DNA from: Eutreptiella sp. 'Long Island Sound 2002'
Taxonomy: Eukaryota; Euglenozoa; Euglenophyceae; Eutreptiales; Eutreptiaceae
Direction: 5' to 3'
Assembly (NCBI GenBank): GCA_964036045.1
Contig: OZ038378.1
Span: 37,635,228 to 37,699,227, forward strand
Length of the DNA: 64,000 nt
A program made the translations under genes and the position numbers. Shown one piece after another: positions 6,720 through 50,660 of the stretch. The notes under the pieces are model-generated. The model did no database searches and was not told where the DNA came from. It was given only the letters and a program-made list of their open reading frames with translations. How positions within the stretch are numbered: position 1 is the stretch's first letter; every line of letters starts with the position of its first letter.

Positions 6720-7375
6720 AAAATAGCTGAAATTCACCTCTTTCAACGGCTATTGGTATAGTCTAGCAGAAAATTCCGCTAGACCGCTACCAGGCACATA
6801 TTCATTACGAAAAACTGATTGGTCGAAGAGCTAGCCTCAATTCGCCCACAAAAGGCTATACATTGTAAACAGGCTTCTTTATAATCAAAAATCAATGTTT
6901 TGGGCGAAATTTCAGCCAACCTAAGGACTAAAGGTTGTGTAAGCACACCAAGTCACAGTAGCAATATGCAGCAGACCCCATACCACACATACAATAGTTA
7001 CTTCAAGACACACATCAATTCCAGTCCTATGTATCAACACCAATGTGCTCAGCCTCATCCAACGGCTATGAGGATGCAACACTCTCGGCATCACAATCAA
7101 TGTCTGGGTCACTATCACAAGAGTCAACATCGATGGGGGCACTGTCAGAAGGGGGGTGCAGCACGGGCAGGGCGGTTGGCAGCACGAATGGAAGCATGTG
7201 CATACTGCAACTCGCCGTTGGACTGCTGTGCGAGCTAGGACATTGGCCCCTAGAAAATCCTCAACACCCTCTGGCACCCTGGTAGAGGAGATAAGGTTTT
7301 TCATCGAGTTCAACAAAACCACTTTCACGCGGTCACTGGTGACTTTTATGTTGGACATAGTACTGAGGAGGAGGA
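6720..7375 (-). mobile_element. E-family remnant (copy 5): C-terminal end of gene A
   Basis: The minus strand from about 7,360 encodes the conserved gene A segment (VKVVLLNSMKNL, TRVPEGVEDFL) and then the acidic C-terminal tail (DVDSCDSDPDIDCDAESVAS, DEAEHIGVDT) with at least two nonsense codons. The same segment occurs in E1 and, in part, in E3. Beyond the tail are degenerate palindromes centred near 6,909, 6,838 and 6,772, spaced about 70 bp as in the better-preserved copies. The one at 6763-6782 (CTAGCAGAAAATTCCGCTAG) has changed arms that still pair with each other. The copy is broken at its 5' side near 7,375. Confidence 0.65.
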
Positions 7376-15840: not shown

Positions 15841-15845
15841 AGACA
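15841..15845. repeat. E1 target site duplication, left (AGACA)
   Basis: AGACA immediately precedes the left inverted repeat and recurs immediately after the right one. Confidence 0.8.
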
Positions 15846-15864
15846 CTTAGGCGTCACAAGTTGC
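15846..15864. repeat. E1 terminal inverted repeat, left
   Basis: A 19-base perfect match to the reverse complement of 22353-22371. Confidence 0.88.
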
Positions 15865-16269
15865 CCACCCCCCACCTGGCGCCATGGCCCACGGAAGTCC
15901 ATGTTGTAATGAGGGGAAAAGTATGTGGAAAGGGGTGTTTTTTTTTGGGTATCCAAACCCCCCTGGTGGCAACATGCAAAAACAAGGTGTGTATTTCAAA
16001 TATATGCCATTATTTGCATTTGTGGAAACACACAGATTTTCAAAATAAAGACATTCAATCACCAAAATATAGTGTTGTTTTACATTTAGACCACTGCATT
16101 CCAGTGTGGGGGGGGTGGGGGGGCTGCCTATTTTTCTCTCCCCTTTGTTCGAGCTTGATCACAGAACCCCCCTATACACCACAGATGAGGGAACCCCAAA
16201 CATACCTTTCATTGAAGCACACAGAAAACTATCCCAAAGCATGTACTTGTATTTCCTATTTTAACCAAC

Positions 16270-16593
16270 CTGGCCGAAATTTCGGCCAGCTCTTCGAAAA
16301 ATGTCCAAACACATGGTCCTATTTGACAGACAGGCCTAAGCTGGCCGAAATTTCGGCCAAGTCCATCGAAACTCCGAATATGATCACTGAAATGGGTACC
16401 TAAGACAGTAGACATGAGCAAGGAACACAGGAGCAGTGACATTTGAACAGGGTGTGCAACATAATATACTCAATTACAAGCAAATACTTGCCACCTGACG
16501 AATCAAAGCAGACTTTTGCAGTGCCTAAGGGGAAACACAATAATAAAAGGCTGAAGAGGCTGAGGACTGCATGCTGGCCGAAATTTCGGCCAG
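16270..16593. repeat. E1 palindromes downstream of gene B
   Basis: CTGGCCGAAATTTCGGCCAG lies at 16270-16289 (perfect, 20 bp), an 18-bp perfect version at 16342-16359, and the full 20 bp again at 16574-16593. The first two are 72 bp apart. Each could form a hairpin in RNA or a cruciform in DNA. Confidence 0.9.
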
Positions 16594-16632
16594 ACTTCAT
16601 ACTGACAGGCAATATGAGCAGCAGGACTGGCG

Positions 16633-19215
16633 TTAGCGCTTGCGCTGACCAGATGCACGGGGCTTCTTAGCACCTGTGTTAGCAGGAGGCTTGGCAGGGG
16701 CTGCAGCACCAGGCTTGGCAGTGGCAGAGTTCTGTGACTGTGTGGTTCCACCCTGGGATGGTGAAAAATGATTCACAAAAGTATTCATACCTTTGCCAGT
16801 AGGGGCAATAGTGCCTAGGGAGGAAGCTGGGGTGGCCTGAGCGCACTGCGTGCCACTGGGTGAGGGGACAGGGGCAGTTTTGGGTTTCCTCTTTGGAGTG
16901 TGTGTCTCTGGTTGCGACTCTGCCTCCCCATCTTGCTCCTCAGGATCCTCATCTACATACCTAACCCCAGAACAATCCACAGGAAAACCTGCCCCCAAGT
17001 CGTGGTACACATCCTCCCATGACTTGGGGGGGCACGTGTCGGCGTTGGTGATAGCTGCTCTGATGGACTGAACAAACTCATCAGGCACAACAATCTCCTC
17101 ACCCAAAAGGGCACACACAACATTACAGTCCTTGGAAAACCTGGTAGACATCATGCTTGCAAAATACACAGACAGAGTCCCCAGCAAAAACCAGTTGCCT
17201 GCCTGTTCTGGGACCGGAACCAGGCTAAAAAGAAATGAGAATATCTCAACACGCATCACAGACGACATGGGTCCTTCAGTAAAAGCCACGTAACGGGGCA
17301 GCCTGTTATCAAAGGCAGTGGCAGAACAAATGGAAACCACATGGGACGTAGAAGTGTACAGCGGGGTCTTGCTTGACAAATTGTAAATTGCAACATCACA
17401 CTGATACATATCCTCAGCCACAGTGGCCTTCAAAGCAGCCACAGTGGCTTTCACATCAGCAGACTCACCCGCAATGAACACAGGCACACCGGACAAAAGC
17501 AGCTGCGCAACCAAGTTATGCAAACTAGCTGTATAGAGGCGGGGCACCTCAATGACACAAGCAGCAAAGGGCAGTGAACTAATGATACTGGGAACAGAGA
17601 CTCCACAACGCATTGCCATCAGTTCCACATGGCGTGACTCTGCAATGAGTTTGCCTGTGCTTGACTCAACCAGGGACTCCCTAGCACACTGGATACTGAC
17701 CAGACCAGTATCAGATTTTTTACAAACAGGCTTAGCAACAGGCTTCTGCAACAATCCCCGCAACCCCTCATATTTGGGTTCCTTCCAAAGAGGGGGCTTA
17801 ATTACTGCTGACCACGGGGGCCAGGGGTTTTCTTCAGTCCAGGTCCAACTGCCATAGGCTACCTTCAGGTGTGATGCAATAGCGCACTGCCTTTTGGCCA
17901 TCTCGATAGTACCAAGTGTAGCTGCAGACAGGTGGTGTCACAGGGTGGGCTCCTATTGTGCATTAATTGAACGACACACAAGCTGGCCGAAATTTCGGGC
18001 AAGTCGGTCGATTTATTCGAATACAAACCCCTGTTTGACCAAAAAATACCTCTGGTGTTGTTCACAAGCCCATTCGTAACCGCCTCGGGATGAAGAATGT
18101 GCCAGGACCACATCTGGGCCTTTTGAACATCTTTTATAATTTTTTTGAGACCAGGTAGGGTACTTTTTGTCCCATCCATGTAACTTACGATGTCGCGAAG
18201 TCGGTCAGGCGTGATGCCTTCCACTTCCTTGAACGTACCCAGTGCGGGATGTAGTCCACGCTTTTCCATGGCTGCCATGGCGTCTACTGAAGCAATACCC
18301 ACAAATTTCAGCAAACGCCCAACGCCACCCCACCGTTTGGCAACAGCACTCTGCACAGGAGAACATGTGGAACACAGACTCTGGCCGAAATTTCGGCCAC
18401 GTCGATCGACAAAACCGAATTAATAAACGAAACACACCACAGTGCCTTCCTCGGCAGTAACACCACACTCTTCAAGCATAACAGTAATGTGATGGTACAG
18501 GGTGTACTCATTGGCATCCTCATCCTCAAGCCTATCCAGGAGTAGGGACATTCGCTCCGATGTGGTGGATGCTGAGCCAGCAGTGGTCTGGATTTGATGT
18601 AAGCCTGCAAGCCGGCGCCTAGTCCGCCTAGTCCTGTTTGACTTCATAACCACCAAATACCAGGGTCCAATCCGGAGTCTCCATATTTTTCATCTCAAAT
18701 TCGGTCTTGTGTTTATGGTTAGCAGTGTAAACATGCTGACCCCCCAACAGAACCCAGCGCGTGGCTGTGCAACAGGAATATTCGTAACAGCAGGGTCGAA
18801 AAATCAGACGCGAAAACGATACTATCGAGAACAATACCACAACACACATACGAGTGACTTTATAAAAAAGAAGATCCTGGATGTAATCCACAGGCGGGGC
18901 TGCCTTCAGATCGTCGTAGCGGCGTTGCACGCGATCATCCGAAATCCTACGGACCTGCCCAAATTTTCGGTCGTGGTCGATAATAATCTGATCCCACCGA
19001 ACCTTTATTTTCGTCGTTGACGTAACCCAGTCGGATAACTTGATGGAGGATGATGAATTTTTCTTTGGTGCGGCCTTAGGCTTCTTTTGAAGTCCCTCTG
19101 TGCTCGCCTGGTCCTCTTGAGACTGGGATTGCACTTGAGATTGCCCATTGTCTGCTGCAGGCTCACCATTTGGCGAAACAGCCATGTCCTGTGATACCCC
19201 TCCAGGCTCAGTCAT
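16633..19215 (-). CDS. E1 gene B: four-exon protein of unknown function
   Basis: Exons 18852-19215, 18438-18764, 18050-18350 and 16633-17921, with introns 18765-18851, 18351-18437 and 17922-18049. All donors are GT (GTATGT, GTGTGT, GTATTT) and all acceptors are GCAG or ACAG. The splices join frames that align with E2 gene B (NNTR-ATLG here, ESR-ANLS there). Exon 1 has a charged, low-complexity N-terminus and a basic core (KVRWDQIIIDHDR). Exon 4 is the largest, with SIISSLPFAACVIEVPRLYT, HNLVAQLLLSGVPV and GFPVDCSGVRYV conserved in E2 and a basic tail ending RKR. Within exon 2, near 18,625, a stop (EVKQD then TAG) and a frame change separate two parts that are continuous in E2, so this copy may be broken. 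ATG at 19215 was chosen; 19185 is possible. No known domain is recognised; an accessory DNA-binding role is only a guess. Confidence 0.65.
17922..18049 (-). other. Intron 3 of E1 gene B, contains palindrome
   Basis: GTATTT donor, CTGTCTGCAG acceptor, phase 1. An imperfect copy of the palindrome lies at 17983-18002. Intron position and phase match the E2 intron 28829-29000. Confidence 0.7.
18351..18437 (-). other. Intron 2 of E1 gene B, contains palindrome
   Basis: GTGTGT donor and CTCCTGTGCAG acceptor. A perfect 18-bp TGGCCGAAATTTCGGCCA is at 18382-18399. The donor is conserved in E2 (GTGTGTTC near 29,375), where the palindrome has been lost. Confidence 0.7.
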
Positions 19216-19334
19216 AAAATAAAGGGCTGCAGGGCAACATTTCATGAAGGGGAGAGTTCCCAGATAGCAAATAACAAGCACGGATCAACCAAAAAAGGAC
19301 CAAAACGGACTGCCTGACAGGAAAATCGGATAAC

Positions 19335-19490
19335 CTGGCCGAAATTTCGGCCAGCACTGCTCTGCATGTCAAACCACTGTGTACAAATACCATTCTGAGA
19401 GGCTGGCCGAAATTTCGGCCAGAACCTTATGTCATTTGTGTTCTGGGGGTAGCCATATGACAAAACAACAAGTCTCGCCAAAATTTCGGC
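19335..19490. repeat. E1 palindromes between genes A and B
   Basis: CTGGCCGAAATTTCGGCCAG occurs at 19335-19354 and 19403-19422, with a degenerate copy at about 19472-19490. Spacing is 68 and 69 bp. Confidence 0.9.
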
Positions 19491-19585
19491 AAGAAAAACA
19501 TGAAACAGCAAATAGACACACCAAAATCACTGGCAATGCGTGGCAGAACCCATACCACAGTGACAAACACAGCTGCAAACAGAAA

Positions 19586-21795
19586 TCAGTCCCAGTCCTG
19601 GGTATCCACACCGATGTGTTCCGCCTCATCTAGGGCTTCAAAGGAGGCAACGCTGTCTGCATCACAATCAATATCCTGGTCACTATCACAAGAGTCGACA
19701 GCAATGGAATCATCAGGGGCGGGGGGGGGTTATGGGCGGGGGGGGGTCGGGGGGGGTACTGGGGGGCCTCTGGCTCGGGGCTTCGGGGGTGGCTTTGGGG
19801 GCAAGGCAATTCCACCAGGAGCAGCAGCAGCAGCAGCAGGCGGTGCACGGTTGGCAGCGCAAATAGAAGCATGTGCAGTACGCAACACCCCTTGCTCGGC
19901 AGCAGTGCGGGCAGGTGCATTTGTTCGTAAAAAATCCTCAACACCCTCAGGAACCCTGATACGCGCAACCAGATTTTGCGTTGCATGCAACAGAACCACT
20001 TTTAAACGGTCTGTGGTGATTCGTGTCCTAGACATGGTACCGGGGAACGTCAAATCTTCAACTGCATCCAGTCTTCTCACCTCAACTTTATAGTCCGGAA
20101 CGGGAACACAAATGGGCAGGCTCTGTGTATGGGCTGTAAAGATGAATTGTTTAAGATTGGCAGAGAACATTGCCACGGATCTCTTAGTCAGCACACCACG
20201 CAAAACTTTCTCTCCCGGTTGGACAAGGAAAGTTTCAGAAAGAAATCAGACGACTGTTGGACACTAGTACAGGCAGTGTTGCGGCGACAGTGGGCTGAGA
20301 ACCGACTCAGAAGTGCCTCACCCAGCTCCTCAAAGTGGATACACCCTAGGGAGGCGGAATGCCACTGACTCCAAAACAAAAGAGCAACAGCGGTGGTTTT
20401 CACATACTCCGTGGTTAACTGTTCCTCCGGCTTTAGGATGTTCAGCATGAGCAGTAGGGACATCTCAAGTGCCTGCTTAGCTACAATACCGGAACCTGCC
20501 CCCCGTCCCTCCCAGTTGCACTCACGAACCAAAGTCCCAATGCTGAAAGCAGCTGGACAGTATGTGTACAGCAAAGCCTTAAGGGCTAATAACATACGCA
20601 AACCCTTGCGCTGAATGGGTGTCAAGTCCCGCTGGCTATTGAGCAAGGAAGTGACGCGCTCATCTAGTCTGCCTCTATTGGACGATGTGGCTAGCATGAG
20701 TCCAAGCAACGTCTTCTCCATATGGATGACCTTGACCTTGCGAGGGAGGATAGACCCAACCTGAAGGGTGTTCGCCTGCTCCAAAAACTTAATGAACGGC
20801 AGGAACGCCCTGTAGATCAATTCAACGCAATACTTATAGCTATGCCATACTCCGTACACCAAAGGAAAACCCAACAGTAATTGTGGTACATTCCAGGGAA
20901 CATAAGCAGCACCATAACACAGCTTAAGTAGGGCAAAGTGTATTTTCATGTCCACAAGCAGCGGAACACAGTGTCTGGTGCGGTGTTCCACACATGACAA
21001 ATCAACCACGAGTAGCAAAAGCTCTTTGTGTGTGCCGGAGCGGAGCTCAGACAGGAAAAAGGGTCTCCAGTTGAGGGAACGGACATTTTTTCTGGCAATA
21101 TCCAAAGGAGCACGAGCCCAAACTCTCTGAATACCTTGGTTGGCAGCATCAATACGATCAAACATTGCTCTATGTGAGCGAAAGATGTCATCAACAACCT
21201 TTGGTACCCTGGCCTCAATTTCAGCCAGCTCTGGCAGACCCCGGTATGCAGGTAGGGCAGAAGTGTGCAAACCAGCAACAGCTGTACAGTTTAGGGTTAA
21301 GTCGGGTGAATGGGGATCAGCTCCCGACCTGTAACGCCTCAGGTTATCAAACCATATACAAACTTGCCTACGGTGCATGGTGTTCCACAAGTTGTGTGCT
21401 GCTGGTCCACCAAGATGGTGAATGGACTCCTGCTTAGTGTTACACTGACCAAGGACTCCTACCTTACGGCGTTGGCGGCGGGACATAATACCCCAGTTGT
21501 AACCAGACCCAGTGTTAGAGTATGGGAGGGCCATACGGCGCAGCAGGCAGTATAGAGCATGGAACTGTGACAAAAATGTCATGTACCATCGTGGGGGCTT
21601 CTTCTCAGTGGCGGCAGCCTTCAACTGTGTCACGCAGTGCCAGCTCCTGCGATTCTTTCGCAACAAGAGGCAGAATTGCAAAGGCTTTTGCAGAGTCCCA
21701 CCACGTAATGCATTTCGCAACAGCCTTCTGGCTGTAGTAGCAAAAGCACCAGTAACTGCACCATGTACAACATTGACAGTAATAGCAGAAGACAT
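19586..21795 (-). pseudogene. E1 gene A: candidate recombinase/transposase, near-intact with small lesions
   Basis: ATG at 21795 (MSSAITVNV) is conserved in E3. The frame runs 535 codons. By comparison with E3 and E2, one base is missing near 20,225, after which the frame continues (EKVLRGVLTKR) through VKVVLLHATQNL and VPEGVEDFL, an Ala/Pro-rich stretch with a TAA at 19730-19732, and an acidic tail (SCDSDQDIDCDADS) ending DTQDWD at 19586. Blocks conserved in E1-E3 are WFDNLRRYRSGADPHSPD (about residues 145-165), VPLLVDMKIHFALLKLCYG, VWHSYKYCVELIYRAFLPF and HMEKTLLGLML. Their invariant Asp and Glu residues could form a DDE-type site, but I cannot assign a family. The acidic tail is also present in E2 and copy 5, so it is probably coding. 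Confidence 0.65.
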
Positions 21796-21866
21796 TAATG
21801 CTGAGACAAGAAAACAGTTATGTAGGAGTGTATGGTGTAATACTCATGAACAACGACAATTGCAAG

Positions 21867-22167
21867 CTGGCCGAAATTTCGGCCAGGTGTGTTCAAAGGG
21901 GAAATCGTTGCTTAAATGTTCAAAAATAGGAAAAGCTGGCCGAAATTTCGGCCAGACCGCCCAAAAACCAGATTTTGAGTGCTTGAATAGTGAACAGACC
22001 AAAAAGCTGGCTGAAATTTCGGCCAGCCCTAAGAAAAACGAAAATAACTATGCCTATTCACCAGGAAACCAAAAAGCTGGCCCAAATTTCGGCCAGAAGG
22101 GTCAAAAACTGCATATACACATAGTTGTTTGCAATGTTACCCAAAACCTGGCCGAAATTTCGGCCAG
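21867..22167. repeat. Array of five phased palindromes upstream of E1 gene A
   Basis: Copies start at 21867, 21936, 22007, 22077 and 22148, with spacings of 69, 71, 70 and 71 bp. The first, second and fifth are perfect CTGGCCGAAATTTCGGCCAG; the third and fourth each have one changed base. The sequence between them is also similar between E1 and E3, so the array is an old part of the element. Confidence 0.92.
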
Positions 22168-22352
22168 CTTCGGAAAAACGTCAAATACAACACACTAGAA
22201 GACGGGGATACACAGACTAACACATCAACACGTATTTGAACGGGTGTCACACAGCTCTGCCAACAACTTTGGTCACATACGTCAAATAACATACTCAAAG
22301 TAGAAATGTAGAATGTTGTCAAATCGCGCGTATACGGGGTCCTAGAGGGTGT

Positions 22353-22371
22353 GCAACTTGTGACGCCTAAG
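22353..22371. repeat. E1 terminal inverted repeat, right
   Basis: The exact reverse complement of 15846-15864, followed directly by AGACA (22372-22376). Confidence 0.88.
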
Positions 22372-22376
22372 AGACA

Positions 22377-26749: not shown

Positions 26750-27502
26750 GCAAAGGCGGCGCTGTAAAGGTCCTTGCCATGATGTGTCTTTCCAACATGC
26801 TCCTTGGGCCTCTCACATCATTCAACCAATTCAATTCTGTGTATTGCTTAGGCCACGCTAACTGCCCACCCCCCTACCCACAGGCTGGGCTCCGCGGGGC
26901 CATACTGTACCCCCCCCCCCGCCCCCCCAAAACAGGGTATGAATTTTGCACCTAGGGGACCCCTTGCTCCTAGTAGGAAAAAATGAGTATCTCTATTTAC
27001 CTAAAATGCCATTCTCATGTAACCACATCCTAGTTGTCAAAACACAATAAGCATGTATGCACACTGGAAAAGCAGAGGAAGAATGCGGGTTTCTTCAATA
27101 CCACAAACCTTTTTGTGTTACACACAAATGCATCAACGTGCGAAGCGATGCGCTGCAAGAAGTAGGGTAGCACACACTTGGCAAGGGTTGCTGCACCCTG
27201 TGTGTGCCCAAAAATTGTCAATTGACAGTCACTCAAATTCATGCATCATAATCCAGGTCTCTATTTGCCATTAATGAGACCTCTAGGCGAAATTTAGTCT
27301 AGCTTTGCAAAAATGTAAAAACGAGCCCGTATTCCAAGAAATACCTGAACCTGGAAGAAATTTTTCCAGTTTTAGTAAAACACAAAAAAAAAACGGTGCG
27401 CAAAACGTCAATGGTATTTGCAAAGACAGCGCAGAACGCCATTTTGGCGTGTAACAGGGAAAACATACAACACAACAGTGAGAGCACACACCACTGTCAC
27501 TC

Positions 27503-30160
27503 TATCGCCGCTTCCTCAAGCCAGGTGCCTTTGGTTTGGCACCCTTACCAGTAAACTGCCCACCATTTGCTTGTGCTGCCTGGTCAGCAGGCCTCTCACT
27601 GTTAGCACTACCAGTGGCACCACGTCCATTCTTTGTCTGCTGGGAAGGTGTGAAGTGGGCTGCAAACGTGCCCAGCACCTTGTTGGTTGGAGGCTTTGCT
27701 CCAGGCTTGGGGCTCTGCTGTGAGGGGCTTGCTCCAGCCTTTGATTTTGTGGCCTTGGCGGGGGTGCCGTCCCCCTGCTTGCCGGTTGCCTTTAGGGGGG
27801 GGGGGGGGCGTTTCTGAATTCACCGTCGTCTTCCTCTGGTTGGGTGGCCTCCACTTCTTGCTCTACATACCTCGTTCCCATACAATCTACCGGAAACCCA
27901 TCTGCAAGGTCTTCACACACTCGGTCCCACTGGATTGGTGCCACAGTGTCGCAATTCGACACAGCAGCCCTCAAATCATTAACAAATGACTCAGGAATAG
28001 ACTTCTCCTCAGACAAGTATGCAACTGCAATGTTCACAGGAAACATGCTCTGAATGGACAAGGCTGCAAAAAAAAGTGGCTGTTGTGTGCATACCATTAC
28101 CCATGTACTATTCTGCTGAATCAAATCCAAAGCATACAGCAAATAACAGAACACTTCGACAGGAATGGAAGTCGTCACGGGGCCCTGAATATAAGAAACA
28201 TATCGAGGTAGGCGTGCAAAAAACTGGTGCAGACTACGCAGTGCAAAAGCAGTCTGTCCCATGTTGTACAGTGCTAATGGCTTGGACAAGCTGTACACAT
28301 GTACATCTGCATAGAAAAATTCCTCAACACAGGCAGCTTTTAGGTTGCTAACACAGGCCCGAACATCAGCAGTCTCACCAGTGACTGCCACCAAAATACC
28401 ATTCAATACAAATTGTGCCACAATATTGTGCAGGGCCAACGTCCACATACGTGGGACCTCAATGAGGATGCACACAAATGGCAGTGCACTAATGAAGCTG
28501 GGAACAGGGCAGCCTGCCCACAAAGGGAGTAGCTCAATTCTACCCTCCTCCTTCAGAACTTTCCCTGTGTTTGTCTCAATAATGGTGTCAGCCAACTCAA
28601 GACTCAGATGCCCACCATCAAGCTTTTCAATACTTGGTGTCACACGGGGCTGGTGAAGCCTGTCACGTAACCCTTGGTAAAGGTCGGAGGTCCAACAGAC
28701 TGCCTTAACAACAGAAGCCCACAGTGGCCAAGGTGACTCAGGACTCCACACCTAGCTGCCATACAGGACCCGGATGTGGGCCATAATACGACATTGTTCT
28801 TTGCACATGGTCACAGGACTTAGATTTGCTGCAGAGGGTATACACAAGAGACAAATGAGGCAGTTGAAAAGTGGTATGCTTATGAACGAAAATCGAGGGA
28901 CCTCGGCGAGTTTTCGCCCAGCTCAGCGTCAGTAACGAAATAAAGACCACGAAATCACTACCACTGAGAGTGCAAAATAATGCAGAATAAGTCCGCATAC
29001 CCCTGGACTCGTGCACAAACCCCTCTGTGACTGCATCCGGATGGAGCACATGCCAACTCCACAACTGCTCAACTCTGGCCAACTTTATTTCTCGTTTGAT
29101 ACCCAGTACTGAGCTTTTGGTACCCGACATGTAGAGGACAATGCTTGACACTCTATTTGGCATTAATCCTTCGCACTCTTTGAAAACACCAAGCGCCGGT
29201 TCAACATCTGGCTTCTCCATCCCATAGACTGCGTCAACAGCTGGCTGCCCAATGAATTTGACAAGCTTGCCCAACCCTGCCCAACGCTTGGCTACAATGC
29301 CTTAAGACAGCAAGAGACAGGTAAAAATACAGGCTTACAGTAATGCTTAACGGATGCAGTCGAAAGGTTGAACACACCACGTTGCCTTCATCAGCTATAA
29401 TACCAATTTTAGCCAACATGTTCTGAGTATGGGTGAGCAGGGTGGCATCTGGAACCTCCGCAATATGCTCCAGTAGCAGTGTCATCCGCTCATTGGTTGT
29501 TGACACACTACTGCTTGTGGTCTGCACTTGATGAAGCCCTGCGAGCTTTCTTCGTATGGGCATGGGAGTGTCTCTTCTAACCTCAAAGCCTTCAAACTCT
29601 CTACTCCATGTAGGCAGGGGGTGATTTTTGGATTCCTTGTCCTTGCCATGTTGCACAACAGCCGTGTAGATGTGCTGACCCCCTATGGCATACCAAGACC
29701 CAGTTGTACATGAGGTAACAAGCAATACAGAGTACAATCAAATGGCACGAAAGATCGAGAACAATCGAAACACGACACGGCAGAACATACGCACGCCAGG
29801 TACTAGCAGTAAATGGTCAATACAATCAGGTGGTGGTGCCCGTGATAAATCGTCATAGCGGGCTTGAACTCGGTCGGGGTTCAGCCCACGAACCTGGCCT
29901 TCAGAGTGGTCTCTATCAATCAGGAACTGATCCGATCGCACACGAATGTGTTTCGTGGAAGTGAGGTAATGTGCCAGCTTGATTTCTGCTTTTCCTTTGG
30001 GTTTGGGCTTTGGCTTCGGTTTGGCGGCTAGTTTGGGCTGTGGTTCTGGTGCGGGGGCTTCAGCAGCACGAGTTCCCTCACTTCCACTAAGATGATCTTC
30101 ATCATTGGCCAGGTTTTCGGGCGGTGTACCAACATTTTGAGAGATTTCCATAGAAGACAT
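27503..30160 (-). pseudogene. E2 gene B (spliced, frameshifted)
   Basis: Exon 1 begins at ATG 30160 (MSSMEISQNVG) and ends at 29791 before GTATGTTC. The next exon (GGQHIYTAVVQ, RRKLAGLHQVQTT) runs to about 29,380 before GTGTGTTC. Exon 3 ends at 29001 before GTATGC. The last exon starts at 28828 after CCTCTGCAG. Exon 4 keeps SFISALPFVCILIEVPRMWT and GFPVDCMGTRYVE, then loses frame in a G run at 27,791-27,806; the C-terminal part resumes in another frame (KSKAGASPS to GLRKRR, stop at 27503). The acceptor of intron 1 lacks an AG, an in-frame stop follows LYGS near 28,755, and the intron 2 acceptor is offset, so this copy is dead. Conserved positions with E1 support both gene models. Confidence 0.6.
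28829..29000 (-). other. Intron 3 of E2 gene B
   Basis: GTATGC donor and CTCTGCAG acceptor, with the same position and phase as E1 intron 17922-18049. It carries a degenerate palindrome near 28,900-28,921. Confidence 0.6.
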
Positions 30161-30409
30161 TGCTTGGAAGGTAACAAAACAGCAGGTGCAGAGTGCAGAC
30201 ATGGTGATATCCAGGTGCTCAGACAGAGACATTAGCCAAATTAGATCAAATTTGGAGAACCCTGGTTCAAAAACACAAAGTGTTGTTCAACAGGGATGAC
30301 ACAGTGCTGAGGGATGCCAAAATCACACTGACTGGAAAGCTGGGCGAAATTTCGCCTAGGTCTGGCAGTTTCAAATAATACGAGGCTCAAAATCATGAAA
30401 GTTGGGCGC

Positions 30410-30429
30410 CTGGGCGAAATTTCGCCCAG
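30410..30429. repeat. E2-type perfect palindrome
   Basis: CTGGGCGAAATTTCGCCCAG. Relative to the E1 form, one C in each arm becomes G and its partner changes to match, so the palindrome stays perfect. Confidence 0.92.
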
Positions 30430-30461
30430 TTGGAAGCACAATAGCATGTAACACAGTCAAA

Positions 30462-32648
30462 TCAGCCCCAACCATGTGTACTCCGTTCCAACTCCTCTTC
30501 ATCATCAAGCACTTCCAGGCTGGAGTCACTGCGCACCTCTTCTGGGCACTTACTGGCACTATCAACACAATTGAAATCATCCACCACCGGTACAGCACAA
30601 GGCATGGGGTGGAGGGCGGGGGGTTTGGGGGGGGTCTGGGGGGAGGGGGGGGGGGGGCTGGGGGGAGAACCACCGGCACACCGCGCGCTGGGGGTTTGGC
30701 GGCTTGTTTTGGACCGTTACCACCGGCTATGTTGATACTGTAGTAGTGTGCACTTCGTTGCCTCTGATCACCATTGGAGCGTTTCTAATTATATGCATTC
30801 AGAAAATCCTCAACACCATTGGGTATTTTAGTCTTGGCAATCAGACACCATAGGCTATGCCGAACAAGGCTCAAAAATTGCTGCTCTGTAACCCTTGTAC
30901 GCGAGAACACTCCCAGAAATTGCATGCGGGGGGCTTCATCAAGACGTTTCACCACATACTTATCCTCTTCTAGGACAGCAATGGGGAACCACGCACGTGA
31001 TGTGTTCTGAATGAACAAATGCACGTGCTTTGTGTACTTGTCCACAGACTTCTACGTCAGGACACCCTGGCATTTTTTCTCTCCTGGAAGTGTGGAGGGG
31101 AGAGTTAAAGAAATATCGGTCGTCTACTGCACCGACTGGGCATTACCAACCTCCCTTGACCTCATGAGTAGGCAACTAAGCATTGCTTCGCCATACTCCT
31201 CAGAAAGCAGCCAACCAAGTGCCCGGGTGTGCCACTGGGACCACAAAAGCAGTGCTACAGTATTGGTACGCAGGTGTTCAGTGCTCATCCACTTTTCAGA
31301 AGGTATGATATTCATCATCAAAACAGTACTCATTCCAATGCATTCTTTTGCAGCTGCACTGGAATTCAGAGAGCAACCGTTCCTGCTACATTCACGCACA
31401 AGAACCCCTAGTGCCAAGAGTGCTGGGCAGTACGAGTATAACAGGGCCTTCAGGAATAAGAGACATTTCAGACCCGGTCTTTGAGCATCACACAACTCAG
31501 CAAGATTACTCATAAGGACCTGGGTAGTACCATCAAGCCGTGCTTTGTTAGTAGTTGTAGCCAGGAACAAACCAACAATGGTTTTTTCCATGTGACGCAG
31601 TTTGAAATTCATGAGCACCACAGCTCCTGCCTTCAGGTCCCAACCCTTTAATAATAGGGGCAAATGCCTTATAGGATATTTCCATAGAATACTTATATGG
31701 GTGCCAGACACTGTAAAGCAACGGGTGTCCCAACACGAACTGGTCTACGTGCCAGCGGGCATAGCTTGCTCCGAACGACATTTTCAGGAGTGCGTAAAAG
31801 ATCTTCATGTCAACCATAAATGGCACAATCCGTCTCGTCTTCACCTGCAAGCATTCTAGCCCCCTGACAAACTCCAATAACTCAACATGACTTCCACATT
31901 TCAGGTGTGATAACAGAAAGGGCCTCCAATTGAGGGATACCACAGCATTGCGAGCATAGTCCAAAGGTGCACGAACCCAGGTCCGCAGAATGGGCCCATC
32001 AGGGATTGTACTTCTTTGCAACAACAACCCAACACAGCGAACAAGGTAGTCCACAACCCCGGGCATACATTGTGCAACAGCATCCAGACCGGGCAGAACG
32101 TGGTACTGGGGCAGCTCAGTACTGTGCAACACACCGACGGCAGTCACATTCGAAGTCTTATCAGGGCTATGGGGGTCCACCCCATTGATGTAGCGACGGT
32201 AATAGTCGAACCACAGTGTAACTTGATGTCTCTCAAATGAATCCCACAGGTGTGAAGCTTGAACGCAGGCCTCGGCCGAGATAGTAGGGGGATTGATAGT
32301 GCATTCCCCTGCCATTGCCAGCTTACGGCGGATGGACTCGGTCATTGTACCGCGATATGAAGCTCCAGTGGCTCTCTGAGCACGGGGATATGTCAGCACT
32401 CGCACAATGTTATGCAGTGAGGAAACTTGCTTCTGCAGTACCAACAACCATCTTGGCCGACGACTACAACCGAAGGCCGCCCGCACATGCCCAACATTAC
32501 GTCTAGTCTTTCTTTTGTGACGCAAATCCAGTGGTAGCTGCAGCAGCGGGAGTGCCCTCCCTTTGTTCAATGCCACCCGAATGACAGCCTTCGGGGTACA
32601 AACGCGAGTACCCCCCACGGCCGTTTGAAGAAAGCGCACATCAATCAT
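30462..32648 (-). pseudogene. E2 gene A
   Basis: The frame from 32648 (MIDVRFLQTAVGG) runs 366 codons with WFDYYRRYINGVDPHSPDK, VPFMVDMKIFYALLKMSFG and VWHPYKYSMEISYKAFAP, aligned block by block with E1 gene A. It shifts near 31,640 into HMEKTIVGLFLATT and on to about 31,130. A TAG interrupts the GEKKCQGVLT block at about 31,056. The C-terminal part (VPEGVED-like PNGVEDFL) ends near 30,785, and a separate acidic tail (RSDSSLEVLDDEEELERS) ends at 30462 across a G-rich tract. Several lesions make it a pseudogene, but the conserved blocks define the family. Confidence 0.65.
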
Positions 32649-32949
32649 GTCTCACACCCACATTGGCAGAAGCACCCCTAAGAGTCAGTGAACACAACCC
32701 AACAAACGTACCACCCTGTAGGTAAAGGGTGTCAAGGCAAGCGAGAAGAAATTTCGCCCAGGTTCAACTTTATCGACTGGTGGGCCCAAGTGACAAGCAG
32801 GCAAAGGGCAACATATCGTGCACAGGACAAAGAAAGAAACAACAGGGGGGGGGGGGGTTGGAAGAAATTTCGCCCGGGATCACTGATTGGTGTTTTTGAG
32901 CTATGTATTTTGCAGAACATGCGGAGCTGGGCGAAATTTCGCCCAGGGT

Positions 32950-34564
32950 CATCAAGACATCAAAATGTGTATTACTTTTTTGCTATCCGGGAGGAGATGC
33001 CACATCGTGGTCGGGCGCACCGGGGGGGCAACGCCCGACATGGCGAAGGAGATCTCCGACCCGCATCGACGTTGTCCCCCTTGCAGATCTCGATATGGTG
33101 CACGCTCCCCACAAAGAAGAGGATGCTCTGCTCGGCGATCTCCATGACGGCGAGATCGGACGTCGGGGCGGAGCGGGGGAGGAAGGTGCAGTGAAAGGGG
33201 CACGTGGGGGGCCGGCCGGGAGGGCAGGCATCCCATGGTGGCGGCTGGTAGCCACCATCAGCAGCATGTCCACCCTCTGCTGCTGAATGGTGTCCCATTG
33301 CGCCTCCCCCGCATCGCGCAGGGCCGTCCCCGCGTGCACCGCCACCTGGTAGTCCGCTGACAGGCAGAGGAAGCTACTCAGGTCACACCCCGAGATGTCC
33401 CTGCTGTCGGGGGGTAGCACCACAGGGTGGGTGGCGACATCGGTGTGGGGGAGCTGGGCCCCATTCCCCACACTTGCCACGATGCCGGCTGGCGTCGCTG
33501 GGTGGAGATTCCCAACCTGAGGGACACTTTCCATGACGGGGGGGTGGAACTTCTTGAAAAGAGGCCCCCCGCCCCCCGACCCCAGGGAGCTTTTGCTTTG
33601 CCAACGCCGCACGAGATCCGAATCCCGCGCGTGATCTGCACTCCGCCCGGCGTTGAAAAGCAGCTCAAAATTTTTTGCGACAACTTTTTCGTCGCCGCTG
33701 CCCCACGCCTTCATCACCTTGTTCCACCCCATCTCACAATCCCGTGCTTCCACAAGCCCCCGAAGCACAATGTAGCCGTTCCCATCAACAAAGTTGAGGG
33801 GCGGCTGGGAGGGACAAACCCTGTCCGGGGCGGGGTCCGGTTGCCCATCACCCGATGAGGGGGTTCAAGAGGGGGTTCGGTGCGGAGGGGGGGTTCGCTG
33901 AAACTGAAGGGGGGGGCGCATGAGGCATCACGGTACCATTGCAAAGAACCTGTGCTGTAGAAGGTGGGGTGGGTGATGTCGGCGATGTGCACCTATGGGG
34001 GGATGGTGGGATGGAAACGGGCGATGCCCAAATCCTCCCACCACCGGGGCCAGGCAAGGTGCCAGGACAAGGGGGAAATAGAGTGGTCGGATGCTGCCCC
34101 TACAACAAGATCGTGCAAGCACACCATCGCGCAATGGGGGGGGGGGGTATACGCAAGGTTAGTGGTGGGGTACACCCGGACGTGGGCGTCCTTGGGCTTC
34201 CCCACCGGGTTAGCATGGAATTGAGCAGTTGGTCAATGGTGGCGGGTTGAGGGGTCAGATGCAAAAAGTTAAGAGAGGCGAGTTGGGAGCGGAGTTCCTT
34301 CCAGAAATATGTGGACCAGGCCTTCCCCCCAAGATAAGAGTTGCGGGAGGGGCTCGGCACGTCAATGTGAATCACCTCGCGGGAGGGGTCGAGGGATGTT
34401 GCCGAGCCCACAACATCGTCCACCCCCAGTAACCCCGACTAGTAGGTCGCCTCCTCCAATTGGTGGTGGGCGACGGGGAGGGCTTGGTACTTCGCCAAGG
34501 TGTCGGCAGCATGATCGGGGGGGGGCTGCAAGGAGGCGAGCTGTGACAATGCTTGCTGGGACAT
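32950..34564 (-). pseudogene. Element III long protein with 2OG-Fe(II)-oxygenase-like part
   Basis: ATG at 34564 (MSQQALSQLASLQ) matches the homologous start at 57398. The N-terminal part (VIHIDVPSPSRNSYLGGKAW, FLHLTPQPATIDQLLNS, VRVYPTTNLAYTPPP) is unrecognised. After frame changes near 34,200 and 33,770, a second part reads GYIVLRGLVEARDCEMGW and QLPHTDVATHPVV with an HxD pair, followed by LSADYQVAVHAGT. In yet another frame near 33,130 it reads ILFFVGSVHH. This order of GY(I/V)VL, HxD and a late His in a hydrophobic strand suggests a 2-oxoglutarate/Fe(II) oxygenase fold. The assignment is by eye and moderate. Stops and shifts make the copy inactive. Confidence 0.45.
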
Positions 34565-34569
34565 GGTCA

Positions 34570-34946
34570 AAAGAAGATGCAAAGAAAGGCTTTGAGAGCT
34601 GTGAGAAAGCGAAACAGTGGAAATTCAGGCAAATTCGTACGAAATTCGTACGAATTTCGTACGAATTTTGTGCGAATTTCACAATCTTGTGAATCTGTGA
34701 ACCTAGCGTGAATTTTTGGGTGAATTTGGGTGCGTGAATTTCGGATTGGACCGAATCTCACCAAATGTGTTGAACCATGTGGCTACTTAAAACCTCTAAT
34801 TTGCACACATTTGTTGGTTCTCCCTTTGGGCGAAGATAGCACGAAAAACGCACCCGATGGCACCAATTTACGCGCAAAACACAGCAAAAAGTTGTGACAT
34901 TCACGGTACCGTGAATCTCCCATTCAAACAGCCGGTTCACGAAGGA
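34570..34946 (-). mobile_element. Element III leader and terminal repeat (copy at 34.9 kb)
   Basis: The end GTTCACGAAGGA (34935-34946) borders TA. A perfect 16-bp palindrome TTCACGGTACCGTGAA is at 34900-34915, and a cluster of TTCGTACGAA palindromes lies at about 34,630-34,670, just ahead of the ORF. The same layout recurs at 57.4-57.78 kb and, in the opposite direction, at 60.85 kb. Confidence 0.65.
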
Positions 34947-35324
34947 TACATATGTTGAGACTTGTATACACTACTTGTCTTGTATTAGCACCTGTGTTGG
35001 TTCCTCTCTTCCATTGCAATGTCAAAAGTGGACAACCATGCAAAGGGGTGGATTACAGTGTGGGGTCTAAGATGGGGGTAATGAGGGCTCATGCCACCAA
35101 AATGCCGACACAATACATCCTTGCGAGGGAGTGTATGCAAGTGCAATGGGATGGTACCATAGCGGATGTCAAAACGCTGCCCTCCTTCACCTCCAACCAA
35201 TCCGTAGCGTGCTTTAATGATGTGCTTCAGGATGTTTTGGAGGGGAACGTCAATTTGCAGGTGGTAGTGGTACGGCCCAATGAGGAGGACCTTGAGCACC
35301 TGTTTGTTCGCACACCCTTGCGCC

Positions 35325-36940
35325 GAATGGTAGTTAAATCGCGATGGTTAGCAAACAAAGAGGACACACCTTCATGCATCTTGGCTCTATTGAACGGTGT
35401 GGAAAGCAACAGACCAAATGTCTTTTCTATGTGGATACCCTCTGCCTTGCGAGGTAGGATAGAACCAAAACTGTAGGCTTGTCGCCTGTTCCAAAAAATT
35501 AATGCAGGGTAGGAAGGCCTGATAAATAAGCTCAACACCATACTTGTACCTGTGCCAAATGCCATATATCAGGGGAAACCCCAAGAGTAATTCGGTACGG
35601 TCTAGGGGACATAGGTTGCACTGCAACACAGCTTCAACAGTGCATTGTGTATTTTCATGTCTACAAGTAGCGGTATGTAGTAGCTAGTGCGGTCTTCAAC
35701 ACATGTCAGGTCAACTGCGAATTGCAAGTGCTCCTTGTGTGAGCCACATCGCAGGTCCAGAAAGAAAAAGGGTCTCCGGTTTAGGGAATGTACATTATAG
35801 CGTGCAATATCCAATAGGGCACAAACTCAGACTCTTTGAACACCTCCTTTCGCAACATCCATAAGATGAAAAAGTACAAAAATAGATTGAAAGACGTCAA
35901 TTGCGACCTTTGGTACCCCGCCCTCAAGTTGTGCCATCTCCCGAAGACGCAAGTAGCCGGGTAAAGCAGCATTGTGCAACACTACAGCTGCAGTGCCATT
36001 CAAGGCTAAGTCGGGTGTATGTGGATCAACACACAACCTACAATGCCTGGAATTGTCAAACTTAGTTGCAATGCCAGCACGCAGGCGAATACAACCATGC
36101 TTGGAGTTGCACTAGCCTAGGGCTCCTACTTTGCGTCGCAGCAGGCAGGACTTAATTCCCCAATTGTACCCTCAGCGGCAGCTAGACAAAGGGACGGCCA
36201 TACGGCGAAGATCACAATAAAGCATTGGAACCGCTCCAAAAAAAATTGGGTACCATCGTGAAGGGTTCTTTTTGACGGCTACTGCCTTTAGTTCGGCAAT
36301 TGACTGACACTATTTCTGTTTACGTCGTAGCATGCAGAATTGCAAAAGCTTCGGCATATTTCCACCACGCAGAGCAGTTCGAGCGACCCCTTTGGCTATG
36401 GAGAGAAAAGCACCATCGGCTGCACAATGGAAGACATTATGGTAAGAGGTGAAGACATTAAGAACTACACAGAAAAAGAAAGGAGCTTTGTGGAATAAGA
36501 CAGATAATGATCGAGATCCTTCAAACCAACTAACGCACCAAACCTCGGGAAAATTTCGGCTGAATGTGTTCGCCGGGCGACGAAAGAGCTATAAATAAGG
36601 AAGCCTATTTGATGTGAAACCAACAAAAGCGGACAGAAATTTCGGCCACACGCAAAAAAATTGAACATAGGTATGCCTATTTTCATGGGAGCTCAAAAGG
36701 TGGAAATTTTTCGGCCAGCTGCGAAATAACTTTCAATCATGGTACACCAAATGACATCGATAGCCAATGTGACCTGATTACACATTGTTTCAATGTGTGT
36801 CAAATAAGATTGGTAACAATCTTGCTAAGATATGTTAAATGGCATACACAAAACAGACAAATGACATAGTCTCAAGGTGTGGTTATAACGGGTTCCTAGA
36901 ACGTGGTGTCAGTGGGCCCTTTGTGACGCCGAAGGGATAC
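35325..36940 (-). mobile_element. E4: partial E-family copy (gene A only)
   Basis: Decayed gene A blocks are read in several frames: DPHTPDLALNGTAAVVLHN near 36,020; SLNRRPFFFLDLRCGSHKEH near 35,790; PLLVDMKIHNALLKL near 35,650; and IWHRYKYGVELIYQAFLP near 35,540. Upstream are three degenerate palindromes centred near 36,553, 36,640 and 36,707. The right end CTTTGTGACGCCGAAG near 36,918-36,933 resembles the E1 right TIR. The left part is missing, ending near 35,325. A plus-strand ORF (34952-35476) overlaps the junction; I regard it as a chance frame. Confidence 0.6.
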
Positions 36941-43038: not shown

Positions 43039-45440
43039 GGATGCATTCGTTTGTAAAAAATCCTCAACACCCTCAGGAACCCTGGTACGTGCAACGAGAT
43101 TTTGCATTGCATGCAACAGAACTACTTTCAACGGGTCTGTGGTGATTCGTGTCCTAGACATGGTACCGGGGAAACACAGACCATCAACTGCATACAGTCT
43201 TCTCACCTCAACTTTATAGTCGTCAACGTGAACGCATATGGGCATGCTCTTTGTATGGGCTGTCAAGATGAATCGTTTCACATTGGCACAGAACATTGCC
43301 ACAAATCTCTTAGTCAGCACACCACGCAAAACCTTCTCCCCTGGTTGGAGTGGGGGAAGTATCAGAAACAATTCGGACGACTGCTGGACCCTGGTACAGG
43401 CAGTGTAGCGGCGACAGTGAGCTGAGAACCGACTGAGAAGTGCCTCGCCCAGTTCCTCAGAGTGGGTACACCCTAGGGAGGAGGAATGCCATTGACTCCA
43501 AAACAGAAGAGCAACGGCAGTGATGTTCACATACTCCGTGGCTAACTGCTCCTTAGGCTTTAGCATGTTCAGCATGAGCAGTAGGGACATCTCAAGTGCC
43601 TGCTTAGCAACAATCCCGGCACCTGCCCCCCGGCCCTCCCAGTTGCACTCACGCACCAAAGTCCCAATGCTGAGAGCAGCTGGATAGTATGTGTACAGCG
43701 AAGCCTTAGGTGCTAATAACATACGGAGACCCTTGCGCTAAATGGGTGTCAAATTCCGCTGCCTAGTCAGCAGGGCAGTTACACGCTCATCTAGTGTGCC
43801 TCTATTGGACGATGTGGCTAGCATGAGTCCAAGCAAGGTGTTCTCCATATGGATGACCTTGACCTCGCGAGGGAGGATAGACCCGGCTTCAAGGCTATTA
43901 CCCTGCTCCAAAAACTTAATGAACGGCATGAAGGCCCTATAGATCAAGTCAACGCAGTACTTATAGCTATGCCACACACCGAATACCAAAGAAAGACCCA
44001 ACAGTAGTTGCGGTACATTCCACAGAACATAAGTGGCGCCATAACACGGTTTAAGTAGTGCAAAGTGTATTTTCATGTCCACAAGCGGCGGAACCCCGTG
44101 CCTGGTGCGATGTTCCACACATCGGAGATCAACCACAAGTTGCAAAAGCTCTTTGTGTGTGCCGGAGCGGAGCTCACACGGGAAAAAGGGTCTCCAACTG
44201 AGAGAATGAACATTTTTTCTGGCAATATCTAAAGGAGGACGAACCCAAACTCTCTGAATACCTTGGTTGGCAATATCAATACGATCAAACAATGCTACAT
44301 GTGAGCGACAGATGTCATATGCAACCTTTGGTACCCTGGCTTCAATTTCGACCAGCTCCGGTAGACCCCGGTATGCAGGCAGGGCAGTAGTGTGCAAAAC
44401 AGCCACAGCTGTACAGCTGAGGGTTAAGACAGGTGAATGGGGATCGGCTCCCGACCTATAACGCCTCAGATTATGAGCCATATATAAATTTGCCTACGGT
44501 GCATCGTGTTCCACAAGTTGTGTGCTGCTAGTCCACCAAGATGGTGAATGGACTCCTGCTTAGTGTTACAATGACCAAGGAGTCCTACCGTGCGGCGTTG
44601 GCGGCAGGACATAATAGCCAAATTGTAACCAGACCCACGGTTAGAGTATGGGAGGGGCATACAACGCAAAAGGTAGTACAGGGCATGGAACTGTGACAAA
44701 AATGTCAAGTACCATCATGGGGGCTTGTGCTAGGTGGCGGCAGCCTTCAACTTTGCCATGGAATGCCAGCTCCTGCGATTCTTCCGCTACATGAGGCAGA
44801 ATTGCAAAAGCTTTTGCCCATTCCTACCACGTAATGCATTTCGCAACAGCCCTTTGGTTGTAGTAGCAAAAGCACCAGTAGTTGCAGCATGTATGACATG
44901 TATAGTAATAGCAGAAGACATTAATGCAGTGAAAGCAGCTATGTAGGAGTGTAAGATGTAATACTCATCAACAATGACGATTGCAAGGTGTGTTCGAAGG
45001 GGAAACAATTGCTTATATGTGCAAAAATAGGAAAAGCTGGCCGAAATTTCGGCCTTACGGACAAAAAACCTGAATATGAGTGCTTGAATGATGAATAGAC
45101 CTGAAACCTGGTCGAAATTTCGGCCAGCCCGAAGAAAAATGCAAAGAACTATGCATCTTCACTGAGAAACCAAAAATATGGCCGACATTTCGGCCAGAAG
45201 GGTCAAAAAATGCATATACACATAGTTGCTTGCAGTGTTACCCAAAAGCCGGCCTCAATTTCGGCCTGCTTCATAAAAACGTCAAATACAACACACTAGA
45301 AGAAGTGGATACATAAGGCTAACGCATCAACACCTATTTCAATGGGTTTCACACAGCGCTGGTAACAACATATTGGTCACATATGTCAAATAGCATACTC
45401 AAAATAGACATGTACAATATTGTAACATCGAGCATATTCC
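43039..45440 (-). mobile_element. E3: truncated E-family copy close to E1 (gene A only)
   Basis: Nucleotide sequence is similar to E1 from the middle of gene A's tail (VPEGVEDFLQTNA at 43,040) to the region upstream of gene A. Gene A is broken by a TAG in place of a Gln codon (LTPI then stop, 43741) and by a frame change in the WFDN block near 44,470. It nevertheless preserves the unbroken GEKVLRGVLTKR segment, which shows that E1 lost one base there. Four palindromes at 45037, 45108, 45178 and 45249 keep the 70-71 bp phase although each has 1-3 changes. Neither TIR is present. Confidence 0.75.
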
Positions 45441-49815: not shown

Positions 49816-50660
49816 CTACGTGGTTGTTCCACCAGGGTTCGCACTGGTCCCATGGGTACGGATGGCAGAGGCTCCGCCTCCATGACCGTCTCGATCTGCC
49901 CCACCACGCCCATGACAGACTACACGTCGTGGGCGTCCCTGAAGCACTTGATGTGCATGTGCTTCCCGCACGCTCCACACGCCCAACGCGTACTCCCGTT
50001 GCGGCGATGCGTGCACAAGAGGCGGCTCGCAAAGCGTAGGGACCGCAGCGGTTGGCGTTGTGCTGTTGAACTCCGCGCCGCTAAAGTACCGTTGCTTGAG
50101 CATGTCCCATTGGAATTCCCACATGGTGGTCTTGTCGTCCACCAATCCCGAGGCCTTGGCGGTGGCAAAGGCATTGCCGGCCGCGTACCGCACCATGAAC
50201 ACACGCACCGCGTGGCTCCAGGTCATTTGCCTCCCCAGTTGGCGCATTTGCAGCGCCATTTGTTTGGCCCCATCTACAGCACGGGAGAACTCCCGGTGGC
50301 ACGCTACGACCGGAGGGAGAGGGTTCCCTCTCCGGTCTTTGGGCACCTCCTCCCCATACCAACAATTGGTAAGGAAGGGGACCAAGCGTGGGGGTTTGTG
50401 CCCCACCTTCGGGTTCTTGTACACGGCAAGTTCATAGTTCTTGTTGGCCACAATTGCCCGTGCCATGTCGCCCTCCTGGGTAAGGGCGGCTGCCCTTGTA
50501 AGGCCGGCATCTTGCTTATCACGCTTTGAAAGCATGAGAAACGGCCGACGTTGGGCCGCGAATTCCTTGGCAAGCCCATGACTCCCGAAGAAGCTGTCCG
50601 CACAAAGGACGGTGGACTGAGGGATCATCCTCGCCCATAGACGCATGATACCCTTAGCGT
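49816..50660 (-). pseudogene. piggyBac-like transposase, copy 2 (N-terminus missing)
   Basis: Homologous to copy 1 from NDAKGIMRLWARM onward: VLCADSFFGSHGLAKEFAAQ with the second catalytic Asp, VYKNPKVGHKPPRLVPFL, and SRAVDGAKQMALQMRQLGRQ, which keeps Asp where copy 1 has Asn. The zinc-finger part (RWACGACGKHMHIKCF) is in another frame, so there is a frameshift near 50,060. The first catalytic region is absent; homology stops near 50,665, next to GCGTTCTGCG-type sequence. Copy 2 has no acidic tail. Confidence 0.7.

Follow-up and report, generated by a model that had tools for sequence, protein, structure and literature searches.

Architecture of the E1 element

The window analysed here, a stretch of 64,000 nucleotides of contig OZ038378.1 of Eutreptiella sp. 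'Long Island Sound 2002' (positions 37,635,228 to 37,699,227), contains on its minus strand a 6526-bp copy of a repeated element, E1. E1 is a two-gene, terminal-inverted-repeat (TIR; class II) DNA transposon, which carries a candidate transposase gene, A, and a second gene, B, and in its noncoding DNA a 20-bp palindrome that recurs at a spacing of about 70 bp. The four exons and three introns of B are predicted from GT-AG borders and homology between copies, and frame breaks disrupt both genes in this copy. The features are as follows (no strand is given for palindromes and duplications).

15846..22371, minus strand: E1 copy, 6526 bp; homology to other copies ceases at both ends, with inverted ends and a flanking duplication
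22347..22371, minus strand: 5' TIR, here CTTAGGCGTCACAAGTTGCACACCC
15846..15870, plus strand: 3' TIR
22372..22376: target duplication, copy 1, 5 bp, AGACA (plus strand)
15841..15845: target duplication, copy 2, 5 bp, AGACA (plus strand)
19586..21795, minus strand: gene A, candidate transposase, placed by tblastn of P0001 and by homologues; frame break in this copy
18852..19215, minus strand: gene B, predicted exon 1
18438..18764, minus strand: gene B, predicted exon 2, frame-broken here
18050..18350, minus strand: gene B, predicted exon 3
16633..17921, minus strand: gene B, predicted exon 4
21867..22167: 5' array upstream of A, five palindromes at 21867, 21936, 22007, 22077 and 22148 (69, 71, 70 and 71 bp apart)
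19335..19493: intergenic array between A and B, palindromes at 19335, 19403 and 19474 (68 and 71 bp apart)
16270..16593: 3' array after B, palindromes at 16270, 16341 and 16574 (71 and 233 bp apart)
18381..18400: intron 2 of B, a single palindrome
17983..18002: intron 3 of B, again a single palindrome; the related family E2 likewise has a site there
21209..21228: near-palindrome inside the gene A exon; its counterpart in four further copies, read along the element strand, is CTGGCCGAAATTGAGGCCAG

The inverted ends of E1 read CTTAGGCG, and CTTAGGCGTCACAAGTTGCCCACCC in most copies read. In the 2.28 Gb of genome searched, an exact 21-mer of the end, CTTAGGCGTCACAAGTTGCCC, occurs at 672 + 669 places (control 0), and a gene A probe finds 507 places. 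The 5-bp target duplication is exact in 14 of the 16 copies with both ends readable and has one mismatch in the other two (L011 and L031); L007 and L008, which have a single end each, stand outside this count. Among the first 100 end matches listed, on contig C1 below 103 Mb, 37 facing pairs lie less than 15 kb apart, 11 of them at 6.4-6.7 kb and 12 at 3.85-4.06 kb, mostly judged by size only. The copies L005 and L010, on the same contig, are full-length relatives of about 97% identity. Two deletion copies were also found: L030 keeps 10 palindromes, and L027 has 3 left and has lost the whole 5' array. The preliminary description of this DNA had not recognised the carriers of the palindromes, the E elements, as TIR DNA transposons with 5-bp duplications.

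Palindromes and their spacing

Both the palindromes and their spacing of about 70 bp are real. When up to 3 mismatches are allowed, the window contains 20 matches to the 20-mer, where 60 sequences simulated from a first-order Markov model average 0.017. Genome-wide, the exact 20-mer occurs 6168 times (reversed control 0); the motif CTGGNNGAAATTTCNNCCAG occurs 7980 times (control 0). The first 50 sites among the CTGGNNGAAATTTCNNCCAG matches listed, all on contig C1, lie without exception inside five E copies (10 + 15 + 5 + 9 + 11). They yield 32 consecutive spacings below 300 bp, of which 20 are 68-72 bp and 12 are 122-273 bp, with none at 20-67 or 73-121 bp; these five copies share descent, and the sample comes from the matches listed and is not a genome histogram. 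Other spacings occur once mismatches are allowed: at up to 3 mismatches a gene-less derivative of E1 (N, see below) adds 62, 65, 73, 75 and 78 bp.

Thirteen of the 14 sites are noncoding in each of E1, L005 and L010, and the remaining one lies in the A exon. The L005 sites fall at +206, 277, 347, 418 and 487, at +1145 (A exon, 18/20), at +2882, 2953 and 3021, at +3979 (intron 2) and +4377 (intron 3), and at +5786, 6019 and 6090. In E1 the subterminal arrays lie some 205-505 bp inside the 5' end and some 425-750 bp inside the 3' end. Of the 20 positions of the motif, the exonic near-copy matches 17 in the window and 18 in the four further E1 copies examined. It contradicts the earlier statement that exons are free of the motif, as does a more decayed exonic site in the copy at 43-45 kb. 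The recurrence of the palindrome, the five upstream sites with their exact spacings and the single sites in two introns, both of gene B, had been correctly described; the three sites between A and B and the three after B had also been seen, with spacings of 68 and 69 bp and of 72 and 232 bp that measure 68 and 71 bp and 71 and 233 bp, respectively.

A second family with a similar layout

A second family, E2, is represented in the window by a truncated copy, beside other diverged relatives of E1.

26847..32994, minus strand: E2 copy, truncated at its 5' end, with CTGGGC as the arms of the palindrome; sites at 27283, 28902 (decayed), 30340, 30410, 32742, 32858 and 32927
35308..36934, minus strand: third, decayed family with the end CTTCGGCGTCACAAAGGGCCC and part of gene A, as well as weak sites near +217 and +286
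43042..45437, minus strand: copy 5, 86.5% identical to E1, with part of gene A; sites at 44336 (exon), 45037, 45108, 45178 and 45249
6763..7361, minus strand: remnant with decayed sites at 6763 and 6900 and a fragment of the C-terminal part of gene A

The full E2 copies L017-L020 measure 6325-6745 bp, have the ends CTTAGGCCACGCTAACT and are flanked by exact 5-bp duplications in all four cases; the E2 5' end, when no more than one mismatch is allowed, is found at 221 + 198 places. Despite the divergence of protein A, which is 40-46% identical between the families, the layouts of E1 and E2 are similar and their spacings are mostly 68-71 bp. The first site lies at +206 in E1 and at +207 in three of the four full E2 copies (L017 has additional DNA ahead of it), and the second E2 site follows 69 bp onward where present (it is missing in L019). 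The E2 intergenic pair is 70 bp apart (81 bp in L020), the intron-3 site is shared, and the 3' pair is 69 bp apart. The preliminary description had likewise noted a similar phase in other copies, which is confirmed with 70 and 69 bp in E2 and 71, 70 and 71 bp in the copy at 43-45 kb.

The E2 palindrome, CTGGGCGAAATTTCGCCCAG, has the arms CTGGGC/GCCCAG, unlike E1, and occurs in 127 exact copies genome-wide (control 0). CTGG and GAAA are common to the two families, with a variable pair of letters in between (CC in E1; mostly GC, also AA, in E2). At several sites of E2 the same asymmetry recurs in several copies, with GC/TT before A and AA/GC after B. Both halves differ symmetrically between the families, and this, together with the asymmetric sites, fits a dimer that reads half-sites. 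The same sites bear on a role as RNA hairpins in element transcripts (for processing, export or as a source of small RNAs), which the preliminary description had offered as an option. A perfect 20-nt palindrome can fold in RNA, and several sites are intronic or intergenic; however, the shared asymmetric sites retain the half-sites and break the pairs, and a palindrome without a loop typifies a DNA dimer site, so that this explanation is hardly credible.

It is very improbable that the spacing merely records the repeat unit of an old tandem array. Adjacent spacers of the 5' array show a weak likeness (z 2.4-3.7 in 7 of 8 comparisons), and between arrays 6 of 124 comparisons reach z of at least 3 (maximum 4.1), as passive duplication would predict; these z scores come from plain letter shuffles, which leave T runs uncontrolled. 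In contrast, adjacent spacers in the intergenic and 3' arrays show no such likeness (z -1.6 to 2.0) although their spacing is the same, and E2 has the same spacing too. The spacing thus recurs without clear spacer homology, and descent from an old common unit keeps a low probability.

The gene-less derivative N

The derivative N consists mostly of multiplied palindrome arrays and ends. Two copies, L006 and L032, measure 3923 and 3931 bp and are 97% alike; each has exact ends, a duplication of its own and 31 sites. The longest stop-to-stop stretch of N is 188 amino acids, and it contains no A or B gene. N comprises the E1 ends and three E1 segments at 74-81% identity, in part inverted: the region of the 5' array and the 3' region are each present as five blocks, and the intergenic region, which extends into B exon 1, is present once. 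The N-type copies L028, L029 and L031 are shorter and have 16, 26 and 18 sites. Each of the five N-type copies read, L006, L028, L029, L031 (one mismatch) and L032, has its own duplication. An N probe, which has 9 or more mismatches to the four copies of E1 used for comparison, occurs at 198 places with at most 2 mismatches; among its matches listed on C1 below 103 Mb, 7 of 12 lie between facing exact ends (six pairs at 3.92-3.95 kb, and L031).

Between N and E1, palindrome columns are 92.3% identical (591/640) and the ends 94% (47/50), compared with 76.0% elsewhere (2439/3208) and 69-77% for shifted control columns. Within N, the palindromes of duplicated 3' blocks are identical at 260 of 260 positions, versus 1071 of 1171 for the rest. 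Pairs of N-type copies show no extra conservation of their palindromes (6 of 6), so the constraint acted between lineages, possibly while the genes were still present.

In 5 of 6 pairs of N-type copies the palindromes are slightly more divergent than the rest (e.g., 0.949 versus 0.975 identical). This excess fits CpG decay, so cytosine methylation may act there. The variant CTGGCCGAAATTGAGGCCAG is found in L006 at +206, +770, +1116, +2993 and +3327 and in L005 at +1145, some instances with one further change and some inverted. It constitutes both the first site of N and the A-exon site of E1, and 22 nucleotides are identical between the two.

Proteins A and B

Two annotated proteins, P0001 (722 amino acids) and P0002 (747 amino acids), are relatives of A. 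The 3' end of the gene depends on the frame past a proline run: it lies at 19586 if read as in P0002, and the P0001 match stops at 19633. Long C runs near the end of A (19700-19760 and 30620-30680) differ in length between L005 and L010, which shifts the frame, and a similar run is present in E2 gene B (27790-27810). The homologues of A found are exclusively proteins without a given name, more distant relatives are encoded on short contigs (P0038 on 2608 bases, P0062 on 1735 bases), and scans of viral_contigs returned no viral relatives.

The residues D150, D282, E360 and E425 of A are identical in 89-100% of the covering rows, most of which are close relatives, and a DDE triad could consist of D150 and D282 together with either E360 or E425. 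At codon positions 1, 2 and 3 of A, the differences amount to 0.40, 0.30 and 0.60 between L005 and the E2 copy L020, to 0.10, 0.075 and 0.15 between L005 and copy 5, and to 0.023, 0.017 and 0.017 between L005 and L010. By this measure A was under coding constraint between families, not among recent E1 copies.

B was also considered as a ParB-like protein on account of the stretch 'RWVLLGGQHVYTA', noted by eye. This candidate was rejected: no Pfam match appeared at E up to 10, and hhalign gave a probability of 0.1 for a shallow B alignment against a ParB alignment of seven sequences (six from plasmids and Spo0J).

A proposed role for the palindromes

We tentatively favour, at somewhat below an even chance, a reading in which the palindromes bind dimers of a protein that the element encodes, probably B, and act in cis to promote mobilisation. 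E1 and E2 would then be families of one kind of two-gene TIR DNA transposon, in which each palindrome serves a protein dimer through two inverted half-sites of the form CTGG-NN-GAAA (CTGGNNGAAA in E1), with NN specific to the family. An accessory protein, B being a likelier candidate than A, would coat the regularly spaced sites in subterminal, intergenic and intronic DNA, and the loaded arrays would draw the ends together with the putative transposase A. DNA with more sites would accordingly be better mobilised. A binding-site function fits best because the motif is two-fold symmetric, the spacing recurs without clear spacer similarity, and the gene-less derivatives are mostly palindromes. 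On the same grounds of symmetry, recurring spacing and gene-less derivatives, the suggestion in the preliminary description of sites for a multimeric protein or for transposase loading remains the best fit, as a predicted binding.

Several results weigh against this proposal. At 10.5 bp per turn, 70 bp correspond to about 6.7 turns of DNA, not a whole number, and adjacent sites therefore face different sides of the helix. For A, no Pfam family scored above the cut-off and a profile search of PDB gave no match. B likewise has no Pfam family above the cut-off in a scan at E up to 10; its exon 3 showed a sub-threshold HTH_47 (E 0.061, 13.3 bits versus a cut-off of 27.1), which was absent from a second Pfam scan, and against PDB sequences it gave four irrelevant matches only (E 0.42-0.79). 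AlphaFold models were unusable, with a mean pLDDT of 39.8 for A and 33.8 for B. The deletion copy L027 still has ends and a duplication without its 5' array, whose loss may postdate insertion. Finally, the palindromes are no better conserved than the rest between N-type copies in 6 of 6 pairs, and within N the duplicated 5' blocks barely differ in this respect (656/696 versus 1726/1860).

The sites may also have a role in chromatin. In one version, modelled on the VANC proteins of plant VANDAL transposons, B would bind the noncoding palindromes and strip silent chromatin to permit expression of the two genes, and the mobility of the ends would be secondary. The presence of sites in several noncoding segments, including introns, and not only near the ends, speaks for such anti-silencing, and the NN letters differ between E1 and E2 as motifs differ between VANDAL families. 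It accounts for the noncoding spread equally well; mobilisation in cis is preferred because N lacks genes. N has multiplied its arrays with neither A nor B to de-silence, unless open chromatin itself aids transposition, and B has no Pfam match. Anti-silencing, the main rival, is a substantial possibility, if an unlikely one.

A second version assigns the sites to a chromatin protein or DNA-binding protein of the host, with a part in nucleosome phasing, replication or silencing, which the element exploits or by which it is marked. Regular spacing across noncoding DNA would suit such a factor, and the confinement of the first 50 listed sites to E copies is also expected from a host mark. A single host protein would, however, not be expected to meet NN letters that vary by element family in the same genome, nor would mere silencing targets be expected to multiply in N, which makes this version improbable.

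It is rather unlikely that the candidate transposase A itself loads on the palindromes as internal and subterminal sites and that B has another role. The subterminal arrays do resemble the transposase-binding repeats of plant CACTA and hAT elements, but sites also occur mid-element and in introns, and A has no recognisable DNA-binding domain.

If mobilisation through a bound element protein, the favoured reading, is correct, the E elements would represent a transposon that bears its own regularly spaced recognition array along much of its length. One genome would then offer natural controls: two families that differ in their site letters, and a gene-less derivative in which the arrays have multiplied. 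The co-evolution of element DNA-binding proteins and their sites would become testable outside plants, as would the idea that site number drives mobility.

Other repeats

The intervals 34500-34960, 57340-57790 and 60840-61340 of the window hold a further repeat, which has palindromes of its own (CGAAATTCGTACGAATTTCG and AATTCACGGTACCGTGAATC); the first two intervals are about 90% identical. Two minus-strand open reading frames match Pfam DDE_Tnp_1_7 (piggyBac type), one at 46162-46830 above the cut-off (E 2.5e-7) and one at 49816-50646 below it (E 0.0034). With one mismatch allowed, the 26-nt spliced leader of Euglena gracilis occurs 2292 + 2415 times (4707 in all) in the genome, and its control 0 times; taken alone, this would make Euglena, E. 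gracilis or a close relative, the most likely host. Its copies are scattered and mostly single among the 100 matches listed on C1, as if many trans-spliced mRNAs were copied back.

Comparison with known systems

The ends and target duplications set the E elements apart from the families compared. CACTA (En/Spm) elements end in CACTA/G, make 3-bp duplications and carry subterminal repeats that are bound by TnpA, whereas E elements end in CTTAGGC with 5-bp duplications. En/Spm and E1 are alike in having two proteins per element and many short sites near both ends, some inverted; E1 differs in its CTTAG ends, its 5-bp duplication, its mid-element and intron sites and an A protein without a Pfam match. 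The piggyBac target TTAA is found in 0 of 16 E duplications. Transib elements make 5-bp duplications and have CAC ends; the E duplications agree in length and the ends do not. VANDALs are Mutator-like, with longer target duplications of about 9 bp, compared with 5 bp in E elements.

Bacterial ParB-parS resembles E1 in its repeated, dimer-bound palindromic sites, but B has no similarity to ParB in Pfam or profile comparison. According to the sections of PMC12477816 covered here, algal transposons including Sola1-1_Ec32 carry a ParB-like accessory gene whose product is proposed to bind its own transposon. An accessory gene with such a proposed role is the shared feature; a ParB-likeness of B is unsupported and no methyltransferase domain was found in Pfam; the word 'palindrome' does not occur in the main text of that paper as covered (PMC12477816). 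Among the open-licence PMC papers listed in searches directed at Euglena, none was an account of this element.

As ends and duplication length fit none of the families compared, the E elements may be a new superfamily. The fuller proposition is doubtful, namely that of a new eukaryotic DNA transposon superfamily with a transposase outside the known families, in which an accessory protein forms nucleoprotein arrays on internal palindromes about 70 bp apart that mark and mobilise the element, protein and sites change together between families, and gene-less derivatives gain mobility by multiplying the arrays. The internal site arrays as such are a variant within a known kind of element, the TIR DNA transposon.

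A close parallel in layout is offered by VANDAL21 and VANDAL6 of Arabidopsis. In the parts of the reports covered here, VANC proteins bind short motifs in the noncoding regions of VANDAL elements, often present as tandem repeats (PMC5735166), and motif and VANC protein both differ between related families (PMC5735166, PMC10398659). The VANDAL motifs (YAGTATTAY and AGTTGTCC) are non-palindromic, unlike that of E1 (PMC5735166, PMC10398659), and the gene-less derivative that multiplies its arrays belongs to the E side of the comparison. The likeness is one of layout, and B matches no Pfam family. VANDALs with VANC and E1 are alike in being multi-gene DNA transposons with a short, repeated, family-specific noncoding motif (PMC5735166, PMC10398659), and in E1, as for VANC-type systems, the motif is concentrated in the noncoding DNA of the element.

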